Assembly (NCBI GenBank): GCA_027919835.1
Contig: JANVFP010000004.1
Location: 1,364,001-1,428,000, forward strand
Direction of reading: 5' to 3'
Length of the DNA: 64,000 nt
Source of the DNA: Lentinula raphanica
Lineage: Eukaryota > Basidiomycota > Agaricomycetes > Agaricales > Omphalotaceae
Each line of letters starts with the position of its first letter. Position 1 is the first letter of the stretch. Below the pieces are notes generated by a model. That model ran no database searches and had not been told where the DNA came from. It worked only from the letters and a program-made list of their open reading frames with translations. The position numbers were made by a program, and so were the translations under genes. Below, one piece after another: positions 13 to 25,100 of this stretch.

Positions 13-3000
13 TTAATCTTTTCCCGAGTTCTCTACTAGATTCCAGGAATCACCAGTTGGATCAATTTGATACAGCAACTGCATTTCCTGATCTCCCTGA
101 TCTTCCACAGTGAAGGCAGCATGGGCGGTGCAGTCCCCATCTATTACAACTTCTGCAGTGGATTCCTCTTCAGTAGTCGTGGTAGGATCTGTCCCTAAGA
201 ATTCCTCTTCTAGTTGGCAGTCATCACAGCATTGACATCCGACACATGCTGCACGGATAACTTCAGTTGCATTTCTATGTTCAGGGCAGTTTCGACCAAA
301 GTGACCCTTCTTCCCACAACGAATGCATAGACGGTTAGCCATTCGATAGTCTCGTTCCTCCTTAGAGATCTGATTGGGAGGAGAGGGTTGATTGGGTTCC
401 TCAGTCACTGCCGCTTTACCCACCACTGGTTTGGTAGTCATAGTATTCGTATTAGCACCAGGTTTCTTTTGCTGGGCAGGAACAGTAGTGGATGGATTAT
501 TGTTGGCATTTCGGTTTGCAAAGTTATTCTGGTAACCTCCGGGTCGGTTTCCTTTAAAAGGATAGTTGGGATTGTTATACTGAGTTCCTGTATTCCGCAA
601 CACCTCCCGGGCACCATCTAACTCCAACAAACGATCCACAACTGCACTGAAGGAATCTGGGATACGGCCAAACAATGTCAAGCGGCTTCTCAGATCATAG
701 CGAATCTGATCAACAAGGTGCCAACGCAGGGCTTCCTCATTGTATCCCGTCCGAAGTGCCTGGTCCTCAAAACGGACAATGAAGTCAGCAAAGGACTCAT
801 CCGATTTCTGGAGAGCATTGCTAAGGTTCGATTGTGCTTGTAGTTTCTCGTCATATAGACCAAAGAGTCTTCCAAATACTTGCACGAATGCACTCCATTC
901 ATGTAATGCAGGGTTGTAGTTCCCAGCCAATTCGGATTCTCTTTCAACCAAGGTCTGGAAATAACGAGCTGCTGCACCACTAAACCAGGAAGCTGCATAT
1001 TGCACGCGAGATTCCGAGCTAGAATATAGAGTTGGTTTTGCTGTGAACATCCGGAAGCAACCACTAAGGAAAGGACGCCATGCTTCACGGTTAGTTCCAT
1101 CAAAGACATCAGGTTTCCGAATTTCTAGCTTGGATTCCCTTGCAATAGCATCTCGTTCTGCTCTACCTGGATCAACAGGATGGGGAGCAAAATTAGCACC
1201 TTGGTTTCCAAATCTTCCTTGAGCTCCCGGTGTACCCCTAGACCTATTGGAACCCTGATTCGATGGAGGTGGTGGTGGTGGGAAATTATTATTACCATTA
1301 CCATTATTTCCTGGTGGAGGAGGATCATTCGGAGGATCTCCAAAAGGGGGTTCCGGAGGTGGAGGAGGTGGCGGTGGAGGCCCAGCTGGATTTTCAGAAG
1401 GTCTCCTGGGAGGCTCGTTTGGAGGAAGCGGTGGTCCAAAGGGAGGATTTGGTGGTGGTGGCGGAGGTGGTCCCCATGGATTATTTGGTGGAGGTGGACC
1501 CATCGGTGGAGGTGGACCCATCGGTGGAGGTGGACCCATCGGTGGAGGTGGACCCATAGGTGGAGGACCATATGAATTCCATTGTACCGTATTTGGATTA
1601 ATGAAATTTTGATCTGTCATATTATTCCAGGGCGTAGAGGGGTACGGTGTAGGCTGATTATATAAGCCTGTAGGCTGATGACCCCAAGAATTGGTATACG
1701 GAGTACTCTGGAATGGCATTTGGGGTGCCATCATCATTTCTGGGGTAACAAAGGGATTGACTGAAGTTCCTAAAGTTGGCAAGATCCTGGGAGGAGATGG
1801 AGGTCTAGGACCCACTGGTCGCATTGGCCTCTTTCCCTTTTCTTCCGCGGAAATTCTTCCTGCAAAACTTCCTTCAACCGAAATGGGCGATATCGGTGAT
1901 TGTTGACGAGTTGTACTGGAGGGTCCAGGGTCCTGAGGGATTCCTTCCACAATACGATCTATTGTTTCTTGTCCCTCAATGGTAGTGGTATGCAGGAAAC
2001 TCTTCCCATCCCAGTCCCAGTAGCCTCCTGAGTCTGATTCCTCACCAAATTTCTCATCTTTCGACCCATCATTTGTAGCAATCTCAATAGTTTCTGGCTG
2101 CTCTCGTATGGTAACGGTTCGGGTTTCTGCGACCGTACGAGGAACATCCAGAGGTTCTTCCTTCTCCTGTTCACCCTGATTGTCCTCCGGAGATTCCTGT
2201 TCCTCTGTTTCTTCTGGTTGTTCAGGAATTGTTTCCTCCCGAGGACTAGTCATGGTACCTGTTTGGACATACTGTCCGGCTCGAGGCATGCCAGGCTTCC
2301 ATTTGGGTGATATAGGAATATTATAACGGAGTTTGATGGGAATGTGGTGCTCGGGGTAGGCCATATAAATTTGGCGAACCACTTTGTCAAATTCCCAACG
2401 GATATAGTCATGACGTAATGCCCTTGACAGGAAGGCTGGATACTCTCCAGGTGCTACGCTGTACCTCAACTGCGAGATCAAACTGATCCAGTCCTCCCTG
2501 GAACGTTCAGGGTGATCACGTAATCCTAGCAAAAGGGCTAATCGTCTGCACCGAGTGGCCAGTAGGTTCACAGTATCTTCCTCTAATACATCTGGCACTG
2601 TAGTAGGTTCCATGGATAATGGGGGTAGATTCCGTGTACTAACTGTATTCTGTGGGTACATGACTTGTGCAGGGCTTGCAGGTGGCCCAGAGGTCTGAAA
2701 CGTGGATACTCCTAGTGTTTCTGGAGTTCGACCTCCCCAGGGTTGAGCCTGTTGTTCCGCAGTTCGGATATGTGGCCAGGGGTTAGGTGGCGGAGGTAAC
2801 GGATTCAGGTTCGGAACCTCTTGTTGCATAGCCCTGGGCAAAGCAGACTGTTCCCCGATGGAAGGCATCTGTGGGAATGTTGGAAAACGAGTAGGGGTCG
2901 GTGGAGCCATTCCCGATCCCATGGGAGGATAGATCTGTCCCACATATGCACTACCCTGATTCATGGGTTGCGACATCTGGGACTGATGGGATGCTACTGA

Positions 3001-3375
3001 AGTTCGTCGTGAACCAACATTAGCATACTGTTGTATCCCAACAGAGGGTGGTGTGTAGTTATATTGGATCGGGGGAGGAGGTGGCGGTAGAAAAGGAGGT
3101 GGTGGTGGTGGTGGTTGCCACCTGGGTCCGCCCGATATAGGTGGGATTGGCAAAGATGGTTGGTTTAGGTTAGGGACAATGGTGTTAGGAGGGGTCGGCA
3201 TTACCATGTGTGGTGGTACCTGTCGGGGTTCTCCTCCCAACATTCGTCCCGGAGTCAGGAATCCAGGGTTCGAGTCTGGGTTTCCTGGTGATCTATTGTA
3301 TCCTGGAGGATAAGTATGTGATGCTTGTGGTTCAGTTTGAGACCGAGTCTCCGTCCGGATAGTCTGCGTAGACAT
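13..3375 (-). CDS. Gag-like polyprotein of a Ty3/gypsy retrotransposon
   Basis: This 1120-residue open frame encodes a capsid-type protein that would package retrotransposon RNA. The first ~740 residues are strongly proline-rich and low in complexity. Residues about 757-930 form a retrotransposon Gag domain (AWRPFLSGCF at its start, then YLDEK-like helices around GLYDEKLQAQ). A CCHC zinc knuckle, CIRCGKKGHFGRNC, lies near residues 1016-1029, and an acidic tail follows. The start is the ATG nearest the candidate LTR, only 27 nt from it. No protease or polymerase domain is present, so pol must lie beyond the left edge. The long proline-rich extension makes the protein about twice the size of a usual fungal Gag. 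The family call is firm; expression is not shown. Confidence 0.85.
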   Translation of the reverse strand: MSTQTIRTETRSQTEPQASHTYPPGYNRSPGNPDSNPGFLTPGRMLGGEPRQVPPHMVMPTPPNTIVPNLNQPSLPIPPISGGPRWQPPPPPPPFLPPPPPPIQYNYTPPSVGIQQYANVGSRRTSVASHQSQMSQPMNQGSAYVGQIYPPMGSGMAPPTPTRFPTFPQMPSIGEQSALPRAMQQEVPNLNPLPPPPNPWPHIRTAEQQAQPWGGRTPETLGVSTFQTSGPPASPAQVMYPQNTVSTRNLPPLSMEPTTVPDVLEEDTVNLLATRCRRLALLLGLRDHPERSREDWISLISQLRYSVAPGEYPAFLSRALRHDYIRWEFDKVVRQIYMAYPEHHIPIKLRYNIPISPKWKPGMPRAGQYVQTGTMTSPREETIPEQPEETEEQESPEDNQGEQEKEEPLDVPRTVAETRTVTIREQPETIEIATNDGSKDEKFGEESDSGGYWDWDGKSFLHTTTIEGQETIDRIVEGIPQDPGPSSTTRQQSPISPISVEGSFAGRISAEEKGKRPMRPVGPRPPSPPRILPTLGTSVNPFVTPEMMMAPQMPFQSTPYTNSWGHQPTGLYNQPTPYPSTPWNNMTDQNFINPNTVQWNSYGPPPMGPPPPMGPPPPMGPPPPMGPPPPNNPWGPPPPPPPNPPFGPPLPPNEPPRRPSENPAGPPPPPPPPPEPPFGDPPNDPPPPGNNGNGNNNFPPPPPPSNQGSNRSRGTPGAQGRFGNQGANFAPHPVDPGRAERDAIARESKLEIRKPDVFDGTNREAWRPFLSGCFRMFTAKPTLYSSSESRVQYAASWFSGAAARYFQTLVERESELAGNYNPALHEWSAFVQVFGRLFGLYDEKLQAQSNLSNALQKSDESFADFIVRFEDQALRTGYNEEALRWHLVDQIRYDLRSRLTLFGRIPDSFSAVVDRLLELDGAREVLRNTGTQYNNPNYPFKGNRPGGYQNNFANRNANNNPSTTVPAQQKKPGANTNTMTTKPVVGKAAVTEEPNQPSPPNQISKEERDYRMANRLCIRCGKKGHFGRNCPEHRNATEVIRAACVGCQCCDDCQLEEEFLGTDPTTTTEEESTAEVVIDGDCTAHAAFTVEDQGDQEMQLLYQIDPTGDSWNLVENSGKD
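1487..1558. repeat. Four 18-bp tandem repeats in gag
   Basis: Four consecutive 18-bp units, beginning GGTGGAGGTGGACCCATC, encode repeated PPPPMG on the minus strand within the proline-rich part of gag. Copy number of such a unit is likely to vary between element copies. Confidence 0.9.
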
Positions 3376-3402: not shown

Positions 3403-4255
3403 TGTTAGGTGACCGTACACTCTAACCTTCGAATACACCTGAGTTCGACGGCTACGAGTTAGTCGTCCTGAGAAACGGTGCAAGATCTGCTAAGCAGAAT
3501 GTCTTACGTCGTGAATCGGGACTTGGAAGGACTTGGATGATCCTTAGTATGAGACTTGGTCAGACAAGAGAGAGAAAAGAGGTTCAACAAAGTTAGAGGA
3601 AACAGTGGTCAAATAGCTAGAATAACCGATCTAGGGAATACATGCAAGTACTTGGGATTTTTATAGGTAATTTGTAGGTAAGATATAAAAGGTAAGTAAT
3701 ATAAAAGAATGTCGGTCGCGAGTCGAGTCAACAGGAGTAGGGAGGACTCGAGTTGACTCGATGAGCGCCGGGACTTCAAGTCCTTATTGAATGGAAGTGA
3801 ACATGACTCGAATCGACGTGAACAGCGTCGATCCGGTCGTAAAGTACAATGATCAGAGTAAGCGAAGAAATGTAACCGTACGATATCCACCGTTCCTCGT
3901 AGCGGATGCAAGTAAGTGCAACAGAAAGGAGCGACCCGACCAGAATCTGCAGAGAGAGTCAGCGAGAGCGACAGGAATACATACAATATGCGAGAGGGAT
4001 CCAGGCGACGAGGCGGGGATCTTGTGAGGAGGAAGCAAGCAGGTAAAATTGAAGATGGAGGATCTTCGGTTCCGGTTGTCTGGGGACTGAGGTGTCGTTG
4101 GGAGTATACGAAAGTGGTAAGAGCAATAGAGGTCATTAGGAGTGTCCAGAGCCGAGGTTGAAGGGATAGCAGCGAGTCATTCGCGGAGGCGATGACTCGC
4201 TGAGTTTGGTTAGACATAGGGAACACGGAATCTGTAGAGAAAAGCGGGCCCAACA
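3403..4255 (-). mobile_element. Candidate 5' LTR of the left gypsy element
   Basis: Read on the minus strand, this 853-bp segment starts TGTTGGGCCC and ends CACCTAACA, giving short inverted termini (TGTTGGG / TGTTAGG). It sits 27 nt upstream of the gag ATG. A TATAAAA box lies near 3659-3665 on the minus strand, suitable for a U3/R boundary. The matching 3' LTR would lie outside the window, so the ends cannot be confirmed, and the sequence after the LTR (TAATAACCGATC) is not a primer site I recognise. A 215-codon open frame inside it is probably fortuitous. Confidence 0.45.
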
Positions 4256-4439
4256 TGTTCCTTATCTTCTAGAGCGTGTCAGGGAATGTGGAAACCCCGA
4301 CGTTCGTACACGGAACTTGACTGGTTCCATTGAGTTGAGAGACCAAAGGAAAGGCATCAGCAAAAATGTTCTGTGCTCAGGGCTACCCAACATAGATCTC
4401 AAAGAATTCCAGGTTGCCTGGGGTCTCTAAAGTCTTCAG

Positions 4440-5440
4440 TGTCTTTGGTGTCTCCTGAGACACCCCCCAAAACCTAAAGCCTTCAGAGTTCCCTGAATGT
4501 CTTTCAAAATCTCTGAATTTCTTTGAATATCTTTAGAAATCTTTGAATATCTCTGAGAATCTCTGAGAGTCTTCCAGAGATATTTAGATATCTTTCAAAG
4601 ATTTTCCAAAGCTCTTTAATGAGTTCAAATGATTCAAAAAGTTATTCAATCACATTTACTTCATTATATGATACTCTATCTATTGCTCTTATATTGACTA
4701 TATCTACTAACACTCATATATTATGATATACTGTATTTGAACTTGATGACTATTAATTTCGGAACACATTCTGATTATATGTATCATAATATATTATTAC
4801 AACCATTATATATGTGTAATGTTAACAAATATAATAGATAACAATGTATATAGTATATGTTATTATAGCTATATTCAGATTTTGACCTGGTGAAGTTCTT
4901 TTTGATTGTACACAGTCTACGGTGGCAGGTCATGTGACCACCTATATTATTGACAACTGTGAGTTGTAATATTTTAACTGATATTTACACTGTATTACTA
5001 CACTATACTATCTTCTAGATGTTAAGATGCAATAGTATCTTATTTCATATTCAATATCTCAAATTTTGAATTTTTGAAAACACTCAAAGTCTTCAGAGAA
5101 GCTCAAATATCTTTCAAAGATGTTCAAAGATGTTCAAAGATGTTCAAAGATATTCAAAGATCTTTCAAAGATATTGAGAGAACATGAAAAATCTCAAGAA
5201 ACCTTCAGGATATTGGAAAAAACCTAGGCAGCTCAGAGTATCCAAGCTCTCTAGAGTATCTGAAGAGCTCAGGTTATTCCCAAAAACCTGGAGCATTTTG
5301 GAGATCTCTGAGTTACCTTTGAACAACTCAGAAACAATTCTAAAGAATTTCAAGGAAACCAAATTTTGAGCCCTTTTCCCAAAGAGTTCTGAGACTCTAG
5401 ATACTTTAAACTATTTGAGAGACTTTAGACTTTTGGGGGA
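4440..5440. repeat. AT-rich degenerate short-period repeats
   Basis: This stretch is built from diverged copies of words such as CTTTCAAAGAT and ATCTCTGAG. The clearest tandem run is at about 5109-5180, where TTCAAAGATG recurs several times. No credible coding frame is seen. Similar words recur at about 7780-7970. Confidence 0.6.
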
Positions 5441-5786
5441 ATCTCTGGTGTCTTTGAAAGACCTCTGGTCAGGGGTATTTTTCCTGATGGGCAGAACCGG
5501 CCTTCCACTGGAAGCAGCAGAGTCTTCTTGTCACGCCGCTTACGCGTTGAAGGCTTCGTTAAACGAGTCATGGTTCTATGGTATAGCGGAGCCGAGGTTT
5601 TGGGAACCAGGATAAATGGACCAAGCAGGAAAAAGCCAGGGTGTGTCAGGAGGAAAGGGACCGAGGGTTTCTGGAAGGAAGAGATGGGCGGCCAAAGAAG
5701 GAAGGTTCAAGGAAGATGAGAGGAAAGGGCCTGAGGTGTCAGCGGACGACGTCTACTGGCACTTCCCTATAGCCTAGTCAGTACTT

Positions 5787-5812
5787 GTAATCCGTTCTGT
5801 CGAACGGATTAC
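5787..5812. other. Perfect 11-bp hairpin
   Basis: GTAATCCGTTC and GAACGGATTAC form a perfect inverted repeat around the loop TGTC. No T-run or gene end is placed to make it an obvious terminator. The rest of 5441-6140 shows no recognisable gene. Confidence 0.6.
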
Positions 5813-6149
5813 GCACAAAAAGGTATCTTGAATGGCCGACCGTTTCCTTGCGGTCTCCATTCCTCAGGTGTTCCCTAGATCTCCTTGTCCTTCCCTAGAT
5901 CATGAGTTGGCGTTCCGTTGGCGTCCATAATGAGCGAGGGCGAGTAAATGGTGTCGAAAGAGCGAAGGTGACGGTGATGATGGTGGAGGTTGAGAGACGA
6001 GAAGCGAAAATGTGTTTAGCACCGAATAAACGCCAGTTCGGCGACGGTTCGGCCATCGGCTACAACGCTGAAAACTTGTTAGGAAAATCCGCGAAAAATG
6101 GAAGAAAATCAGGAAAAATTGGGGGTGGGCCTTGTTATGATTCATAACA

Positions 6150-7545
6150 ATAAAACACTGTTATATTTCAAAAGATCACAATATAGCTAACCCGACAGGT
6201 TGAATTTTCGAGTTCTCTGAATTGTATTTAGAAGAATATGATATAGACAACATCCTGACACAGTATAGAGCCCAGACAAACATTATTGAGTGTGCTATTA
6301 ATGAATTTCGACTCAAAAACACCAAATAAGCGCCCATAAGCGCCCAAAACTCGTTGTTATAAGTGTGTTATAGTATAACAATGAGTGTGTTATGTATATA
6401 AAGTAACATTGTTCCGACTTTTTGACTGTTAAGTGTGTTAAGTATAGTGACTGACAACACTGTTTTAAGTATTTTCATTGTCAACTGTGTTAAGTATAAT
6501 ACATATAAGTACTGTTATGAGTTTTCATGTGTGAGGTTTGATGAGTGTTAAGTGTACTGAACATATTGAGTAATATAAATTGTTCTGAGTCATCAAGGGT
6601 ACTAGGTGTGTTAAAAATATCATGTACAATATGTTTGATACCCCAAATCATTCAGTTTGGTAGGATTCTTGAGTGATATAAGTGATTGAGGGTACTAGGG
6701 GTGCTATAAATAGTATATACATGATATATACTGACTGTGTAGTGGATTTGGTATGATTTGGAGTAATGTTGTTTTTCAATTGTGTCATGTAAATTTTTTT
6801 ATTTTGCATTTTCAGGGCCAATAAGGCACCCCTGAATTTTTTGAGTATTTTTTATGATTTTTTCAGATTTTTTGCTATCAGATGAGATCAAGTTCTATTT
6901 TTAGCCCAATAAAGGTACTAGGATGCTAAATATAGCATATACATCATATATACTGACTGTATAGTGGATTTGGAATGATTTGGAGTGATGAAAATTTTTA
7001 CACTTGTCGCGTATATTTTTTAATTTTCCATTTTCAGGGCCAACAAGGCACCCCTGAATTTTTTGACTATTTTTAGGATTTTTTTCAGATTTTTTGCTAC
7101 AAGATGACATCATCATCAAAAATTTCCTTTTTTGGTAATTTTTGGATGCCTCGATCTGCAATAGGCTATATACCATTCCTACATATTTTTAGCATTTTTA
7201 GTGATTTTTTTTGGCTATTTTTAGCACCTAGATAGATCCTACAGCATTTTTTACCATATAAGGCTATTTTGTTTACATACCCCAATTTGACCTAATTAGG
7301 TTTTTTTGGGTTTTTCTGAATTTTTATAGTTTATCAGGATTTTTTACAAATGTACCGCTTATTTAATATCTGGATAATTATTAATTACCCAAAACAGTAA
7401 ATATAGGTCAGATGTGACAGGTGGTGACAGGCATGCCCACCCCCCGGAGCCATTTCCGGAGCCCCCTCTGTGTCGTCACAACTATTTTCAAAAGCTCCTG
7501 GATAACTCATCAGGTCTTTTTACAAAAGCTTTACAGTATCAGCTG
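6150..7545. mobile_element. Foldback element, single arm (copy A)
   Basis: This segment is homologous, in the same orientation, to the right arm of the palindromic element at 18886-21787. It ends at the same terminal sequence (TTTACAGTATCAGCTG) and shares the GC-rich subterminal block GTGACAGGTGGTGACAGGC near 7420 and the block with GCGCCCATAAGCGCCC near 6330. It carries two copies of an internal ~215-bp unit, like the left arm of the other element. No inverted partner arm is found to its left, so it is a half element or a deletion derivative. Confidence 0.8.
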
Positions 7546-8143
7546 GACGATCAACATGTGCCCCCTCTTGTTGCTGTTCATGGCAACACGCTGGTGCAAG
7601 GACCACATTCGTCGTCTCTAGAACATGTAGATCAGCACCACTCAATGGACATTGATGTTGAGAACCATACCAATCCTCCTGCTCTACAGCAGGGACAACT
7701 CATGTTTGCTTCCTCCTCGTATGCCCCGCCTCCCAGCAGCATCTGGAAAACTATATAAAGCTCCTGGTCCCTGAGGCTCCCCCACAGAACCTGGGCTCCC
7801 CAGAGCTCCTCAGGGACCTCCGGTATCCTAGGCATCCTTGGATGCCTAGGGAAAGGGCCAAATCCTGGTATCCCTCCAGGACTTTGAAAAGAACTCAAAG
7901 ATATCATGGGAGACCTCAGAATCTCTCTATATATTTCAGAGAGACTCCACAAAGAGTTCCGATGACCTACATGGTAATCAACTCAGAGGCTGGAGCAAGT
8001 ATAAATACCCCTCATGCCATCACAATGATCACATAGACTACTGAGGTGATCTGAAGTTTATGTAGTAAAAGAAAAAGTCTCTTGTGCGACAATGGGCAAA
8101 ATTAATTGAACAAGAGACTTCAAGACTCTCATACAATTAAATA
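7546..8143. other. No gene recognised
   Basis: A 114-codon plus-strand frame starts inside the foldback arm at 7414 and runs to 7758. Its part after 7546 looks protein-like (ENHTNPPALQQGQ) but matches no family I know, and it may be a transposon remnant. At 8076-8119 an inverted repeat (AGTCTCTTGT / ACAAGAGACT) flanks a copy of ATGGGCA next to the tRNA-like gene. Confidence 0.4.
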
Positions 8144-16856: not shown

Positions 16857-18885
16857 CATCTTTCGTGGTTCAGTGACAACACGGAATCCGGCACTGAGCA
16901 TATTGAATTGACCGTGTCCTCCAGACAAGGCGCGAAGACGGCTGTTATAATCCAGCATTTGGCTAAGTGAAGTGAAGCCAGAGCATGAACAATAGTTTGA
17001 GTTCTGGGAACTTACCGGCACTGTTGAGATTGGAAGACGAGAGCGAGATAATATCGGGAGAGATATAGTTCCCTTCTTCAGGATACCCAGTTCCATCACC
17101 AAGATCCTGTAGTTCTGCACCATGCTCAGTCGGATCCTTAGCCACTTTGCCAAGTGTGTCTTCAGTCACAGACACCAACACAAAGTAAGGTTCCATTGGC
17201 GATCCCATACCGGCTTTGCGTAGCCGATTGCGCATGACGATCGCACTCGCGCCTGTGAGTAAAGACAACGGCGAGGGGGTAGACCGTTCTCCAATCCGAA
17301 TGCGTAGACGCGACATCGGCAAGAAAGAATGAGGAGAGCTCGACAAGGCAGTGGCAATCCCCGAGGCTATCAATAGTTCTGGATTGGCGGTTGAAGATGA
17401 TTCTGGGGAAGATATAGGGACACCTGCTTTGTCGAGTACGAGATTTCCGTCCCTGAGTGAACTTCCATCTTCGTCTTCTTGTAGAGGGCGGATATCTAAA
17501 GCTACAGTGACAGAGTTTCCGGCAGATTCCGCCTTGACATCTTTAGTTATCAACGATTTCTCGAAATGCGGTGGGTAGTGGTGGGGACCCAACGCCTCCC
17601 GATAACTGACTCGGCGCTTTCCAAGCTCGAAATTCGCATGAAATCGACCCTCGACGCTCTCAAGGTGTAAGGCGCCCAAACCGTGGATTAGAGTTTGTCC
17701 CTCCTGAAGATCATATCAAGATTCAAGGATTCCAGAGCGAAACCGGGTCCAGAGCTGAATGGGAGTGCGGTATCACAGAGGCGAAAATGACTGCTTTCTG
17801 ATGTTTTGCCTGACTGCTCGACTCGCGGAAGGAGCTCCTGGAGATACGAGGGTGTCTCCCGTGCGGATGAACTTGAGACACAACACAACGCCTACTGCAC
17901 CGAATGGCAACTCGTCGACTTTTACAGGGTCAGCTGCGTACATGAGCAAGAGTTTGCACACTTTTTCTTCTTTTGATTACGGATTGCGTTCAGGACTGCG
18001 CTTTGTCTTGTGAGTATTCCTAGATAGTTTGAACTCAGCATGCGATCCAAAAGTTTTGTCAAGAGAGCTTGGAAATACCTGAATATATCCGCACGTGAGT
18101 CATCCAGCCTCGTTTATGATCCCAACTGACTTGCCAGCATACGCAACGGAGCAGGATCGTGAAGGTCATCCACAGGACTCGCGGACAATTCCCCATCGTA
18201 GTCCATCGCAAGACTGGTTCTGATGTGATTGATGGCTAAACCACAAACCACGGGCAGTATTTTGTTCTCGAAAGTATTTTTTCGTATATGGGGTATGATA
18301 TCAGAATGGTGGACCCCTAGATATGAAGAGGGTTCGGAGGGTATTGTGAGCAGTGTCTCCATCAAATCTTCAGAGAACATGGAAAGATTCTCGAGCAGCT
18401 GAGTGCGTGCGGGAGCAAGATGAGGTATGATGGGGTGGTTCGAGAGCAAGAACTTGAGCGCCACCAATGCGTTCACGTCAGTAGGCAGTGGGTAGCAGGT
18501 GGGGTTCCCGTCTTCGTCCCAACGCCACAACTTCCACTTGACAAGGTCGACAAGCCCTTGTATGCCAGGTTCTGCGTGTAGATAATCCTACGGTTCGAAG
18601 GATGCGATGGGCAGGGTCGATACCATTGGATGACGCTGGAGACGGTTTTTGAGGAGTGAACGGAGGAAAAACTTGAAGGAAGCGACTGGACGGTCCTGCT
18701 TGTTCGAGAACATCATGCGCGTCGGGACACCATACCTGACCGGTTGATATTTCAGCTTTGCATTTCCGTACTGACGATGTGAATCTCACCTAGACGACGC
18801 ACCTGTCTAATTGCTTCCACACGCCTTTAGTCTGTGCTTCGACTCCTTCTACAGAGTCGATTAGGACGACAGCACCGTCAATGAC
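16857..18885 (-). pseudogene. MEF2: Mitochondrial elongation factor G2, C-terminal part
   Basis: This is the larger, downstream piece of an EF-G2-type mitochondrial GTPase, which with ribosome recycling factor splits ribosomes after termination. Next to the insertion site it reads DGAVVLIDSVEGVEAQTKGV. Further along come ENLSMFSEDLMETLLTIP and ILPVVCGLAINHI (~18190-18400), KLLLMYAADPVKVDELPFG (~17900-17950), then LIHGLGALHLESVEGRF (~17640-17690). The C-terminal domains contain PEEGNYISPDIISLS-type sequence, and MLDYNSRLRALSGGHGQF and VVTEPRKM mark the end near 16857. Introns separate the blocks. The usual last residues after PRKM are not traced. A 2.9-kb foldback element at 18886 separates this piece from its N-terminal part. 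Confidence 0.85.
18879..18885. repeat. Target-site duplication CAATGAC, left
   Basis: This is the same 7 bp as at 21788-21794. On the minus strand it encodes part of the EF-G2 VID codons. Confidence 0.85.
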
Positions 18886-20306
18886 CAGCTGATACTGTAA
18901 AACTTTTGTAAAAAGTACTGATAAGTTATCGGGTACCTATTGCAAATAGTTGTGATAACCCGGAGGGGGTCCCGGAAATGGCCCCGGGGGGTGGTCATGC
19001 CTGTCACCACCTGTCACATATGGCTTATATTTACTGTTTTGGGTAATTAATAATCCAGTACATTTTCAAAAAAACCCGAAAATTCATAAAAATTCATAAA
19101 AAACCTAAAATGGCCTGATTAGGTCAGATCAGGATATGTAAGCAAATGACCTCATATGATAAAAAAATGATGTAGGGCCAATCTAGGTACTAAAAATAGC
19201 CCAAAAAATCACTAAAAATGCAAAAAATATTTAGGGATGGTATAGAGCCTATTGCAGGCCCAGGCACATCAAAATTACCAAAAAAGGAAAAAATTGATCA
19301 TGATCTCATCTAGTAGCAAAAAATCTGAAAAAAATCCTAAAAATAGTCAAAAAATTCAGGGGTGCCTTGTTGGCCCTGAAAATGCAAAATAAAGAAAAAT
19401 ACGCGACAAGTGTAAAAATTTTCATCACTCCAAATCATTCCAAATCCACTATACAGTCAGTATATATGTTGTATATGCTATATTTAGCATCCTAGTACCT
19501 TTATTGGGCTAAAAATAGAACTTGATCTCATCTGATAGCAAAAAATCTGAAAAAATCATAAAAAATACTCAAAAAATTCAGGGGTGCCTTATTGGCCCTG
19601 AAAATGCAAAATAAAAAAATTTACACGACACAATTGAAAAACAATATCACTCCAAATCATACCAAATCCACTACACAGTCAGTATATATCATGTATATAC
19701 TATTTATAGCACCCCTAGTACCCTCAATCACTTATATCACTCAAGAATCATACCAAACTGAATGATTTGGGGAGTAAATATATTGTACATGATATTTTTA
19801 GCACACCTATTTAGCACACCTAGTACCCTTAATGACTCAGAACAATTTATATTACTCAATATGTTCAGTACACTTAACACTCATCAAACCTCACACATGA
19901 AAACTCATAACAGTACTTATATGTATTATACTTTACACAGTTGACAATGAAAATACTCAAAACAGTATTATCAGTCACTATACTTAACACACTTAACAGT
20001 CAAAAAGTCGGAATAATGTTACTTTATATACATAACACACTCATTGTTATACTATAACACACTTATAACAACGAGTTTTGGGCGCTTATGGGCGCTTATT
20101 TGGTGTTTTTGAGTCGAAATTCATTAATAGCACACTCAATAATTTTTGTGTGGGCTCTATATTGTGTAAGGATGTTGTTTATATTATACTACACTTGATA
20201 CAACTCGGAGAACTCAAGATTACAGCTTTTGGAACTGGCTATATTGTGATCTTTTGTGATATAACAGTGTTTTATGTAAATGTCAATGCATACACCCATG
20301 TTATGA
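18886..20306. repeat. Left inverted arm (two internal units)
   Basis: The arm is about 1.4 kb and is the reverse complement of 20573-21787. It contains two tandem copies of a ~215-bp unit, each with CAGGGGTGCCTT and GGCCCTGAAAATG, at about 19310-19510 and 19525-19730. A GC-rich subterminal block with GTCACCACCTGTCAC lies near 19003. Confidence 0.85.
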
Positions 20307-20572
20307 AGTCAAACTGCTACTGGGTCATGAGAAGAGTTATCCTACAACCTATTCTATGCTAACCCTATGTGATACAGCAAAGAGATCTGTAATGGGGGTC
20401 ATTGAATATGACATCTATTGTTACATGTAAGTGTAGACATCTATAGTGTACATGAAACATGTACATGTATATCACAGAGTCCAATAGTCATAGTGAGTAT
20501 CTGAACCATGTCCAGACACTTCTAATAGACTGTAGGAGTGATTCCCTCATGAACCACCATCAGTATACTTGC

Positions 20573-21787
20573 ATTACATGGACATATGCATTGACATTTA
20601 CATAAAACACTGTTATATCACAAAAGATCACAATATAGCCAGTTCCAAAAGCTGTAATCTTGAGTTCTCCGAGTTGTATCAAGTGTAGTATGATATAAAC
20701 AACATCCTTACACAATATAGAGCCCACACAGAAATTATTGAGTGTGCTATTAATGAATTTCGACTCAAAAACACCAAATAAGCGCCCATAAGCGCCCAAA
20801 ACTCGTTGTTATAAGTGTGTTATAGTATAACAATGAGTGTGTTATGTATATAAAGTAACATTATTCCGACTTTTTGACTGTTAAGTGTGTTAAGTATAGT
20901 GACTGATAATACTGTTTTGAGTATTTTCATTGTCAACTGTGTAAAGTATAATACATATAAGTACTGTTATGAGTTTTCATGTGTGAGGTTTGATGAGTGT
21001 TAAGTGTACTGAACATATTGAGTAATATAAATTGTTCTGAGTCATTAAGGGTACTAGGTGTGCTAAATAGGTGTGCTAAAAATATCATGTACAATATATT
21101 TACTCCCCAAATCATTCAGTTTGGTATGATTCTTGAGTGATATAAGTGATTGAGGGTACTAGGGGTGCTATAAATAGTATATACATGATATATACTGACT
21201 GTGTAGTGGATTTGGTATGATTTGGAGTGATATTGTTTTTCAATTGTGTCGTGTAAATTTTTTTATTTTGCATTTTCAGGGCCAATAAGGCACCCCTGAA
21301 TTTTTTGACTATTTTTAGGATTTTTTTCAGATTTTTTGCTACTAGATGAGATCATGATCAATTTTTTCCTTTTTTGGTAATTTTGATGTGCCTGCGCCTG
21401 CAATAGGCTCTATACCATCCCTAAATATTTTTTGCATTTTTAGTGATTTTTTGGGCTATTTTTAGTACCTAGATTGGCCCTACATCATTTTTTTATCATA
21501 TGAGGTCATTTGCTTACATATCCTGATCTGACCTAATCAGGCCATTTTAGGTTTTTTATGAATTTTTATGAATTTTTGGGTTTTTTTGAAAATGTACTGC
21601 TTATTTAATATCTGGATGATTATTAATTACCCAAAACAGTAAATATAAGCCATATGTGACAGGTGGTGACAGGCATGACCACCCCCCGGAGCCATTTCCG
21701 GGACCCCCTCCGGGTTATCACAACTATTTGCAATAGGTACCCGGTAACTTATCAGTGTTTTTTACAAAAGCTTTACTGTATCCTGTG
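20573..21787. repeat. Right inverted arm (one internal unit)
   Basis: The arm is about 1.2 kb, the inverted partner of 18886-20306. It is shorter because it keeps only one of the ~215-bp internal units. This matches a deletion by recombination between the tandem units. Confidence 0.85.
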
Positions 21788-21794
21788 CAATGAC
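21788..21794. repeat. Target-site duplication CAATGAC, right
   Basis: The second copy of the 7-bp duplication flanks the foldback element. In the minus strand the frame runs VESVSRVI into it. Confidence 0.85.
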
Positions 21795-22159
21795 GCGACT
21801 AACGCTTTCGACTTCCAGGCCAAAGTCGGCGTGACCTACTTAACTGGTAGATTGTATTATGATATCGCGTTCTCTCTCTCTGCAGGAAGGAAGTCTGTGA
21901 TGGTGCTACCTGTGTCAACTGAGCCAGAGGTAAAGAGAGAGATAGGAAGATTGAATGAGTATTGATTCTGTTGGAGTGGTTTTGCCAGAATTTTGAGATA
22001 GATGAGAGTATTGTCTGTCGAGTTGAAGGATGTCGACGTACCGATGTGTGCTGCCATATTGCGTATTGTACTGGGATCACGAGGAACGACTTTTGCGGAT
22101 ATTTTGCGACGATAATTTGGTGTTTTTCTGAGGAAGGAGAGCGATAGTCGAGGTCGCAA
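21788..22159 (-). pseudogene. MEF2: Mitochondrial elongation factor G2, N-terminal part
   Basis: This is the N-terminal GTPase region of the same EF-G2 gene. Visible blocks are STIRNMAAHI (the strand before the P-loop), SGKTTPTESILI (P-loop), VDTGSTITDFLPAERE (switch I) and GHADFGLEVESVSRVI (switch II and after). They are in different frames. Between AHI and SGKTT I find no clean splice site, and after AERE the usual RGITIQSAA sequence has been lost. This part therefore looks decayed independently of the transposon. It abuts the truncated end of the NOT1 copy. Confidence 0.75.
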
Positions 22160-22169
22160 GTGATGAGAG

Positions 22170-25100
22170 CACCCCAGCGATATGGCCTGTGGACGATGAA
22201 ACGTTCAAAAATTTTGGTCATCACTTCTCGGAATTTGTCGTTCACCTCCAAGAATAGATGAAGACGTAGAGCATTGAACCAATGAGTCTGTGCGTTTGGG
22301 TATCTCCTTGAGTTAAAGTGCCATGGCACTCAGGAGATGATGTTGTCCTTTATGAGATATTTGAGTCGGCGTTATCACGAGATAAGTAGGGTACATACCT
22401 TCGACATCGATGCTTATTGCCATATATTCGAGAGCGAGGATTCCTAGATCGGTGGGTACGAACACGGAAGTGCCGCTTCTTGCTTTGGCGTGGGCAAGTT
22501 GGCAACTGATGAGACATCACCACAGTGTTGACACTATATTAGTGGGGCATTGCGTCGGTCATTCCAGCGAAACGAAATTTATCCTTTAGCGTTAACAGGA
22601 AAGCAGAGGAACCACGGTCCAGAAGGTACTGGTCAAGATGGCTTCGAAGCTCTGTATTTGTGAGGGGAGGTGAAGTCAGAGAGACAGGTGGGATGGGGCC
22701 CATTTCGGGTATAGGGTCGAGGGAAGTATTGCGAAGATGAGGATTGGGTAGAGTGATAGTACAAGGGAATGCGCTGAGGATGATGTTTCGAAGTTGCATA
22801 CAACGTGACGAGGGGGGATTACGTCGCAAAAAGTGAAATAATATTCACTCAAGAATTAGGGGAAATTGGAGCGCTTCACGGTGTAGATCTCTGGCACCGG
22901 TTTTAAGAACCGCTTTCTCAGGAAAGGAGCTAGAAACTTGAGCAGGGAACCCAACAGTTCATGGAACCCTGACCAGCCCTGTGACACAAGGCGTTATCGA
23001 CGGGAATATAAAATGCAAACAGGACATACCTCTCTGTTTCCAGGGAGTATCAGTTCTGGCATGAATAAGCGATGAGATAAGAGACACATCCAAGAGAAGG
23101 CAAAGCCAGGGAAATTGGTGGCTTGCAAGGATATGAAGGTATCGCTGAGAAAGTAACATGAGGTTTGACTCACAAAATGATTGAGAGTCAAACATACCTG
23201 ATGCGGAAAATTAACTGGAAGTATGCCGTTCCCAAATGAACCTCCATGGAATAAAGTATCTTCGACAGATAGTGTGCATTGGCCTGATCCACGTTGCCGC
23301 CCGAAGGATCACCGTGACTTTTGACGATCAGACGAGACATTGCATCCAGGGTTTGGAAAGCGTATTCGTATTCTCTTGCCGTCACCAGTTCAGTTTACTG
23401 GCTGACACTGGCTTCAGCGTAGACTCGGAAGAAGAGTGAGGAGGTGTCATCTTCTTGACAATGAGAGCTTTAGCGAGCTGAGTAATGAACGGGATAAATT
23501 TCTTTTCGGGGGGATGCGACCGTTAGTAGATATTGATCCATTGCTGGAACCAGCTTACAAGCTTTCCCGCATATTTCCTACACCAGGTTTCGTAGACGTT
23601 TGACGCGGTTCCGGCAGTACGACCGTAAATGGGCGTCTGATGCCTCATATATCGTCCAAGTGTTCGAATACCCTATCACAGACTCGTCTGTGAACAGGCA
23701 TACAGACGCAGAAGAAAACTAGACAGATCAGCTGCCTTTCCTTCTTGGACCGTGTTTGTCAACAATTCAATGCTATACTGAATTTGTGCTTGGGAAGCGA
23801 CTGGAGGGTTGCTTAGCAAACACTCTCATATCAGGCCCGCTATGAAATATTCAAGAAGCTAGGACGGGGACCCATCGATCCCATGTACATGGTTTTGGCG
23901 AGGGCCCGATCAAGCACTCCGACTTTCAGTAAGCTGCTACGAAGGAGAGTCAGTCAAAGGAATGTTGAACTCGCGCTAGATGGATGCCTGAGCACCGAAT
24001 CAGTATGGGTGAGAGGACCACGAACCTCATCTTCAGCGTACATAAACCATGTGATAGCCTCCTTCGCCACATCTTCCAAAGCGTCCGTTGACATCAGTAG
24101 CACGAAATCAAGGAGGAGTTATGTATATATATCTACAAGTGAATTCTCCCCGAGAAATTGACGAGTTCTTTGCAGGTGACAAGAGCCGAACTTCCGGCAA
24201 GTTTCGGTGCCGTGAGATGACCAGCCTTTCGCATCTTCTCTTCGTTGCTCTCTGTTGCTAAATCTTTCGCGACCAATTCTTGAGTTGATATAACAGCAAT
24301 AGTGACTGATCGCTCGACAACAGGTAGGATAATCTAGAGAGCCTCAGTATTGCAAGAAAAGGTAAAGATGGAGCACTCATTTCTCGCACTGCACGCTCCA
24401 CAGCAAGGGCAACCGCTCGCGTGAAAGTAGGCTGCGTGTTCAAAGGACTTCGCTGTAAAATCACTTGCGCGCTATTCATCAAATTTGATTTGGGGGCATA
24501 GTATCCTCGAAGGATCCGAGGGCTCGAGGGTCCCAGCAGCATTTGACCATCTCCAGAACTAACCAAACGCCCATCTCCACCCTGGAACAGCAGAGTCGTA
24601 TGGACGTATGGGCAGAGAGTCGATGAACGTGGCATATTCGGGAAGAGGAGGACAGTAAGTGAATCGGCAAGAGGGCGTGTTCGAACAATGGTAGAAGGTT
24701 CGACTGCATCCAAATTGATGTCAAGTAGAGTATACGCAGCTCGATCTCAAGCTTGTACTCCAATTTCACGTCCGTGAGGATCAATTTCGAGGAGAAAGGC
24801 TCATTACTCCCATGAGCTAGTACGGATTAGGGGGTTTAAACACTTTAAAGTGCACACAGCCTTCGAGAACTTCGCACACGAAGGATATAGAGATAATGCT
24901 TCGCCCAGATTCATATCCTTCGATGAGCAGATCTCTGAAGGATATATTCTTGTGTTTGATGGGTATGTCCAGGGGCCCAACCAAACTTTGACATCATTCG
25001 CCGGATTCGTTCTCTGCCAAATTGCAGTGCCTGTTCCGAATTGAGCATGCTAGCAGGACTTGACAAATGTCTCGTGAAGAATGTATTCCGACAATTTTGC

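Follow-up and report, generated by a model that had tools for sequence, protein, structure and literature searches.

The window, i.e. the whole stretch of 64,000 nucleotides that was analysed, covers C4:1364001-1428000 of the assembly of Lentinula raphanica (49.06 Mb in 75 contigs). It contains a palindromic element flanked by two copies of the 7-mer CAATGAC and inserted in an EF-G2-like gene copy, together with one arm of a related element. The features are listed below in window coordinates.

6150 to 7545, minus strand: one arm of a sister ('c3') element with the terminus CAGCTGATACTGTAAAGC, 89% identical to the left arm of the window element (inner end approximate)
18312 to 18885, minus strand: EF-G2-like gene copy, cut by the element; the portion that follows the insertion when the gene is read (protein, Pfam and PDB matches)
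18879 to 18885, plus strand: left target-site duplication CAATGAC, present once at the empty site C24:85960-86080
18886 to 21787, no strand: whole palindromic (foldback) element, 2902 bp (flanking 7-mers, inverted arms, empty site)
18886 to 18919, plus strand: left ('L') terminus CAGCTGATACTGTAAAACTTTTGTAAAAAGTACT (comparison of termini across copies)
18886 to 20353, plus strand: left arm (inverted-repeat search)
19289 to 19714, plus strand: tandem repeat of the left arm, two units 222 bp apart, with one unit only in the right arm of this copy
20354 to 20523, no strand: centre between the arms, without coding match (inverted-repeat search, Pfam scan)
20524 to 21787, minus strand: right arm (inverted-repeat search)
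21754 to 21787, minus strand: right ('R') terminus CACAGGATACAGTAAAGCTTTTGTAAAAAACACT, read inward (comparison of termini across copies)
21788 to 21794, plus strand: right target-site duplication CAATGAC (flank sequence)

The original prediction, made from the sequence alone, had described a foldback structure with long inverted arms around a small centre, and the inverted-repeat search bears this out. Three pairs of inverted blocks were found, 19511-20353/20524-21366 (843 nt at 96% identity), 19046-19492/21163-21609 (447 nt at 94%) and 18891-19072/21601-21782 (182 nt at 92%), with a spacer of 170 nt separating the innermost arms; the right arm of the window copy is shorter than the left because one unit of the 222-bp repeat is missing there. 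The inverted arms thus make up most of the length of the element, a defining feature of the foldback type. A Pfam scan of all six frames returned no domain, neither a transposase nor a hAT domain, in agreement with the predicted absence of a transposase. The window element is a non-autonomous foldback-type DNA transposon, and its nature as a transposon can be regarded as practically certain.

The insertion is defined by its target. The flanks joined with a single CAATGAC read VESVSRVIDGAVVLIDSVEGVEAQT in frame, and removal of the element plus one CAATGAC restores ...EVESVSRVIDGAVVLIDSVEGVEAQT..., confirming the in-frame rejoining that had been proposed. An empty site is present within the same assembly at C24:85960-86080, where 121/121 bases are identical to the joined flanks and the 7-mer occurs once. 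Insertion took place at a CAATGAC that had been present once and became duplicated. Two further copies of the gene were located by protein search, on C24 (99% over the longer match) and on C47 (88%), both uninterrupted across the site at which the window copy is cut; the C24 copy may belong to the other nucleus or be a duplication.

The claim that the element had entered EF-G2 stands as to the type of protein and the precise site of insertion, but the host is a duplicated copy which looks already broken. Against PDB, the target peptide matches best a bacterial EF-G (3.8e-24), followed by mitochondrial ribosome-releasing factor 2, which is of EF-G2 type (2.8e-19), and mitochondrial EF-G (8e-11), and against Pfam it matches GTP_EFTU at 1.7e-15. 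An in-frame stop (QSTS*VGHADF) lies just upstream of the insertion site in both the window and the C24 copies, and DTPG, which we take to be the G3 motif, is absent from every minus-strand frame of the joined region, although an intron may lie there. Since the stop is common to both copies and DTPG is missing, the insertion appears, from sequence features of this kind, to have hit a duplicated and decaying copy. Beside the EF-G2-like copy and on the same strand, fragments of a Not1 domain occur in three frames (window 22159-23161, minus strand); together the two may be a block of two genes that was duplicated and has decayed.

The element belongs to a family whose extent was assessed with its arms and termini, a search against the rest of the genome that the original prediction had recommended. 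The left arm gave at least 43 genome matches, 40 of 1009 candidates having been scored (the window is included, and both arms of one copy can match). An inner terminal pattern, which left positions 1-11 and 30-31 unconstrained, set position 17 as A and allowed up to three mismatches, gave 280 genome matches against 0 in the reversed control, and an outer terminal pattern with at most one mismatch gave 495 termini in the 49-Mb genome, again against 0 in the reversed control. We sampled 40 loci from the best arm matches and the listed inner-pattern matches, mostly with both ends in view, a sample that is biased toward close and complete relatives. One locus (L078) had one end only and two loci held two copies each, so that 41 complete copies other than that of the window were parsed. 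Full copies measure ~3.0-3.1 kb, compared with 2902 bp for the window copy.

A 7-bp duplication was exact in 25 of these 41 copies, had one mismatch in one and was absent from 15; with the window copy included, the figures become 26/42, 1/42 and 15/42. The duplication is exactly 7 bp long, the eighth base agreeing at chance level (5/26 and 4/26), and no strong target motif was found. The predicted ends, length, 7-bp duplication and transposon nature are therefore upheld both by the empty site and by 26/41 other complete copies with a duplication (one mismatch allowed). In four pairs of copies (L046/L047, two in L056, L060/L061 and L065/L066) one arm is 100% identical over 840 bp; the members of each pair lie no more than 11 kb apart on the same contig and each has its own 7-mer. 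Such identical-armed neighbours with different 7-mers therefore represent separate, recent and local insertions, a hint of local hopping. The foldback family is large and recently active, and the insertion in the window is real and well bounded. As far as our searches show the family is new, its kind being already known: no palindromic KDZ-type or foldback family of mushrooms was found by title and start of abstract, in a search with most subscription papers and the repeat libraries outside its scope.

The part of this analysis most worth specialist attention is the coexistence of fixed unlike ends with homogenised arms. We aligned the 84 arms of 42 copies, some of them truncated or with inserts, and compared left with right in the 27 copies with a duplication. 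Fixed differences between L and R occur only at positions 3, 4, 5, 11, 17, 30 and 31, in all 27 duplicated copies (one mismatch in the duplication allowed), and position 34 shows a partial difference. The mean difference in allele frequency between left and right arms, |pL-pR|, is 0.96 for the eight sites of the outer 35 bp, falling to 0.11 at the one site between 35 and 100 bp and to 0.01-0.07 from 100 to 1200 bp; close to the centre, at 1200-1360, where the arms align less well, it reaches 0.17. Inward of the outer ~34 bp the arms have no fixed left or right identity. Outside the ends, the median arm identity is 99.4% within a copy versus 96.7% between copies, and 0/10000 permutations reach the observed mean.

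The unlike ends are associated with the duplication, being present in 27/27 copies with a duplication versus 10/15 copies without (Fisher p = 0.0035). They also occur in 29/31 close pairs among 100 listed of the 495 termini, a set that overlaps the 42 copies and so is not independent of them. From the presence of unlike ends in 27/27 duplicated copies, and of like ends only in copies without a duplication, we infer a transposase acting in trans which would need one end of each kind, a requirement that we hold to be evenly poised between right and wrong. Stated more generally, a eukaryotic unlike-ends rule, analogous to the 12/23 rule of V(D)J recombination, might fix 31-bp ends on a homogenised palindrome with 1.4-kb arms, copies made like-ended by conversion or recombination leaving the mobile pool; our confidence in this formulation is likewise evenly divided.

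The same pattern could arise without any selection on the ends if gene conversion from arm to arm simply halted before reaching them, the flanks being non-homologous. The step from fixed to unfixed positions is indeed sharp, at ~position 34, the 7 to 8 mismatches would themselves hinder conversion, and none of the five like-ended copies was made in place with its duplication retained (0/5). This explanation is nevertheless doubtful, although possible, in view of the termini of the family and of its sister subfamily. Mixed ends, combining L and R types at positions 3-5 (e.g. G-A-G), were absent from the 100 listed of 495 termini, even though the pattern permitted them. In the sister subfamily one end reads CAGCTGATACTGTAAAGC and the other CACAGGATACTGTGAAGC, as seen in two copies which have the 7-bp duplications GGGCTAC and ATTTCTT and which were picked because the KDZ genes that they cut revealed their location. 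Both subfamilies keep GCT/CAG at positions 3-5, so that this difference is common to both. The two sister ends differ at 3-5 and 14, yet are equal at 11 and 17 and also at 30 and 31 (the L end being read in the sister arm of the window only). Since they are equal at 11 and 17, identity between the arms can extend to within 15 bp of the end; the remaining differences were either lost in the sister or gained in the main family.

In the window, the sister arm at 6150-7545 is bordered by DNA which looks by eye like that of an LTR retrotransposon, at about 3600-6150, and a gag-like open frame of 1120 aa with a CCHC knuckle, also seen by eye, occupies 13-3375 on the minus strand; a retrotransposon seems to have landed in this sister copy. 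A further palindromic family is represented by L079 (C7:978200-981200), which is about 79% identical to the window family over 982 bp.

The original prediction had considered that other copies with different ends and without a 7-8 bp duplication would speak against it. This is partly the case, 15/41 lacking the duplication and five of these being like-ended, whereas 26/41 have it. In our reading the duplication-less copies are derived products and do not argue against transposition. The five like-ended copies (two LL and three RR) all lack the duplication, and the remaining ten copies without it have unlike ends. Chimeras of the Galileo kind, described at inversion breakpoints in the available parts of two reports (PMC2775673, PMC3573991), were considered for the duplication-less copies and rejected, the arms of these copies being no more divergent than those of duplicated ones (median identity 0.9928, n=15, versus 0.9940, n=27; p = 0.54). 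The result argues against a simple and recent crossover from one copy to another, unless rapid homogenisation followed.

Assembly errors, instead of recombination or deletion, might also account for the copies without a duplication. In favour stands like-ended L063 (C11:9727-13622), at 10-13 kb of its contig. Its mirror symmetry continues into both flanks for 389 bp, and the outer 1700 bp contain 2 mismatches; fold-back repair would give such a near-perfect palindrome, and so would a misassembly close to the contig end. The junctions point in the same direction, no reciprocal partner being found for the four of 30 halves that were effectively tested, GACTCAC, ACAATAC (0 places), CTCCCTA and TTTGAAC (7 places, other sequences). 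The junction search was able to find a true partner end, as the match at C20:97509 demonstrates, where the 7-mer is the complement of the one beside the L end of L024. When the 7-mers of 100 ends were compared, one match versus 0.3 expected by chance was obtained, GATCGTC, which is common to the c3 end in the window (7546-7552) and to the R end of the duplication-less copy L076 (C22, positions 354-360). The other 14 copies without a duplication, however, lie on contigs of 0.49-2.1 Mb and no closer than 25 kb to a contig end, and random misjoins do not predict that 5/5 like-ended copies lack the duplication. We consider assembly error a rather unlikely explanation.

Taken as a whole, the explanation that we find on balance somewhat probable is that of a non-autonomous foldback element moved in trans by a transposase that uses unlike ends and is most likely a Kyakuja (KDZ) enzyme. 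In this mechanism a transposase encoded elsewhere in the genome would bind two unlike ends (CAGCT... and CACAG...), excise the element and insert it, often at a site in the neighbourhood, where the target is cut with a 7-bp stagger. The arms would be homogenised by conversion or crossing over with each other, while selection by the transposase would keep the two ends different, and copies with two like ends would cease to jump. Against this mechanism stand the ten unlike-ended copies that lack the duplication and the finding that copies without it are not chimeric by arm divergence.

The assignment of the mover to Kyakuja is by analogy, and we judge its merits to be finely balanced. It is favoured because Kyakuja matches in its 7-bp duplication, its CA..TG termini and its unlike ends, a likeness of form and not of sequence; a sequence link between Kyakuja and the window family was not found. 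The Kyakuja elements of Laccaria are described, in the portion of the source available, with 7-bp duplications, CA..TG termini and no TIRs (PMC12730594). The genome contains 158 matches to the KDZ domain and 28 to Tet_JBP, 5 of the latter above the curated cut-off. The autonomous relative with the same termini which the original prediction had suggested looking for was not found, none of the listed termini belonging to a transposase-bearing element, and no KDZ gene lay inside a terminus pair when 100 listed of the 495 termini (all on C1-C7) were set against 107 of the 158 KDZ matches. Two flagged cases of a KDZ gene in a pair were rejected, for they are KDZ genes cut by copies and not cargo. 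In addition, ends with CACAGGATAC but without the G that the family has next to it, at position 12, were found at 20 places versus 7 in the reversed control, one of the 20 being evidently a changed family member; by reading, no listed KDZ match was closer than 10 kb to any of these 20 ends. The inserts of two long copies (L039 and L045) contain no Pfam domain in six frames. The KDZ copies with the longest open frames, of 808, 805 and 782 aa, are at C36:100106, C36:120409 and C20:974645. As a separate observation, copies of the family or its sister cut three KDZ transposase genes, at C7:828881-832039, C3:338273-341377 and C1:623787-626897.

Among other candidate movers, a hAT transposase of the hAT7 kind, producing 7-bp rather than 8-bp duplications, is suggested by rust-fungal families in the accessible text of PMC12730594 and by 78 matches to the hAT dimerisation domain in the genome, two of which, pieces of one gene, lie between c3 and c4 termini on C7. 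This hAT gene abuts a truncated copy, and arm DNA begins, by eye, ~200 bp past the hAT stop codon; the gene is therefore a neighbour and not cargo. The interval C7:973913-984453 (c3..c4, hAT inside) was accordingly rejected as an autonomous partner, for it breaks down into a remote relative of the foldback type (about 79%), an independent hAT gene and one truncated copy; it was the one candidate seen among the 100 listed of 495 termini. The same portion of PMC12730594 reports hAT7 from rust fungi only. We consider a hAT7 mover unlikely.

The element could also be the fungal counterpart of Galileo, moved by a transposase of the P superfamily. Galileo has long foldback arms, with >99% identity inside one copy and a divergence of about 7% from one compared copy to another; it also has 7-bp duplications and some copies with non-matching flanks, as far as the available parts of the sources describe it (PMC2775673, PMC3573991). 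The P-type domain PF21787 has no match in the genome, with control genomes likewise unmatched; the GTAGTAC-like target consensus given in the part of PMC2775673 available is absent, so that duplication length alone agrees, and the duplication-less copies are without the divergent arms typical of Galileo chimeras. Such a P-type mover appears highly improbable. As for MULE transposases, 14 matches were found in the genome, none of them, by reading, inside a listed terminus pair (100 of 495 termini). Mutator duplications are 9 bp long.

If a trans-acting transposase that needs unlike ends is indeed responsible, the genome would be a record of mobile (unlike-ended) and dead (like-ended) copies. 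The combination of near-identical arms and fixed unlike ends would separate what the transposase needs, the outer ~31 bp with one end of each kind, from the effects of recombination, and the natural copies, which can be counted, would allow one to test directly which ends the KDZ enzymes, still poorly characterised, require. Furthermore, long palindromic copies mark places of possible rearrangement of a fungal genome.

The family shares features with several known systems. MITEs are likewise non-autonomous, with many similar copies, inverted ends and target duplications, and remain below about 800 bp; the window family, of about 3.1 kb and palindromic almost throughout, contrasts with their few hundred bp, and membership was rejected on account of the size of the window element (2902 bp) and of full copies (~3.0-3.1 kb). 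The foldback shape is common to the window element and to Foldback/Mutator elements such as Tm1 of root-knot nematodes (PMC3169594). hAT7 has the 7-bp duplication in common with the family, but is reported from rust fungi, and the window copy is without a hAT domain (PMC12730594, in the part available). Galileo, of the P superfamily in Drosophila, resembles it in its long, internally repetitive and near-identical arms, its 7-bp duplication, the majority of copies without a transposase and a class with non-matching flanks, but the fixed unlike ends of the window family have no mention in the accessible parts of PMC3573991 and PMC2775673. Kyakuja (KDZ) of Agaricomycetes, in the available portion of PMC12730594, agrees with the family in its 7-bp duplication and CA..TG termini and in having two ends of which neither repeats the other. 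It encodes a KDZ transposase, and in its TET+ families also a TET/JBP enzyme, whereas the window element encodes nothing recognisable, and it is without TIRs, whereas the window family has 1.4-kb arms whose outer 31 bp differ at 7 positions.
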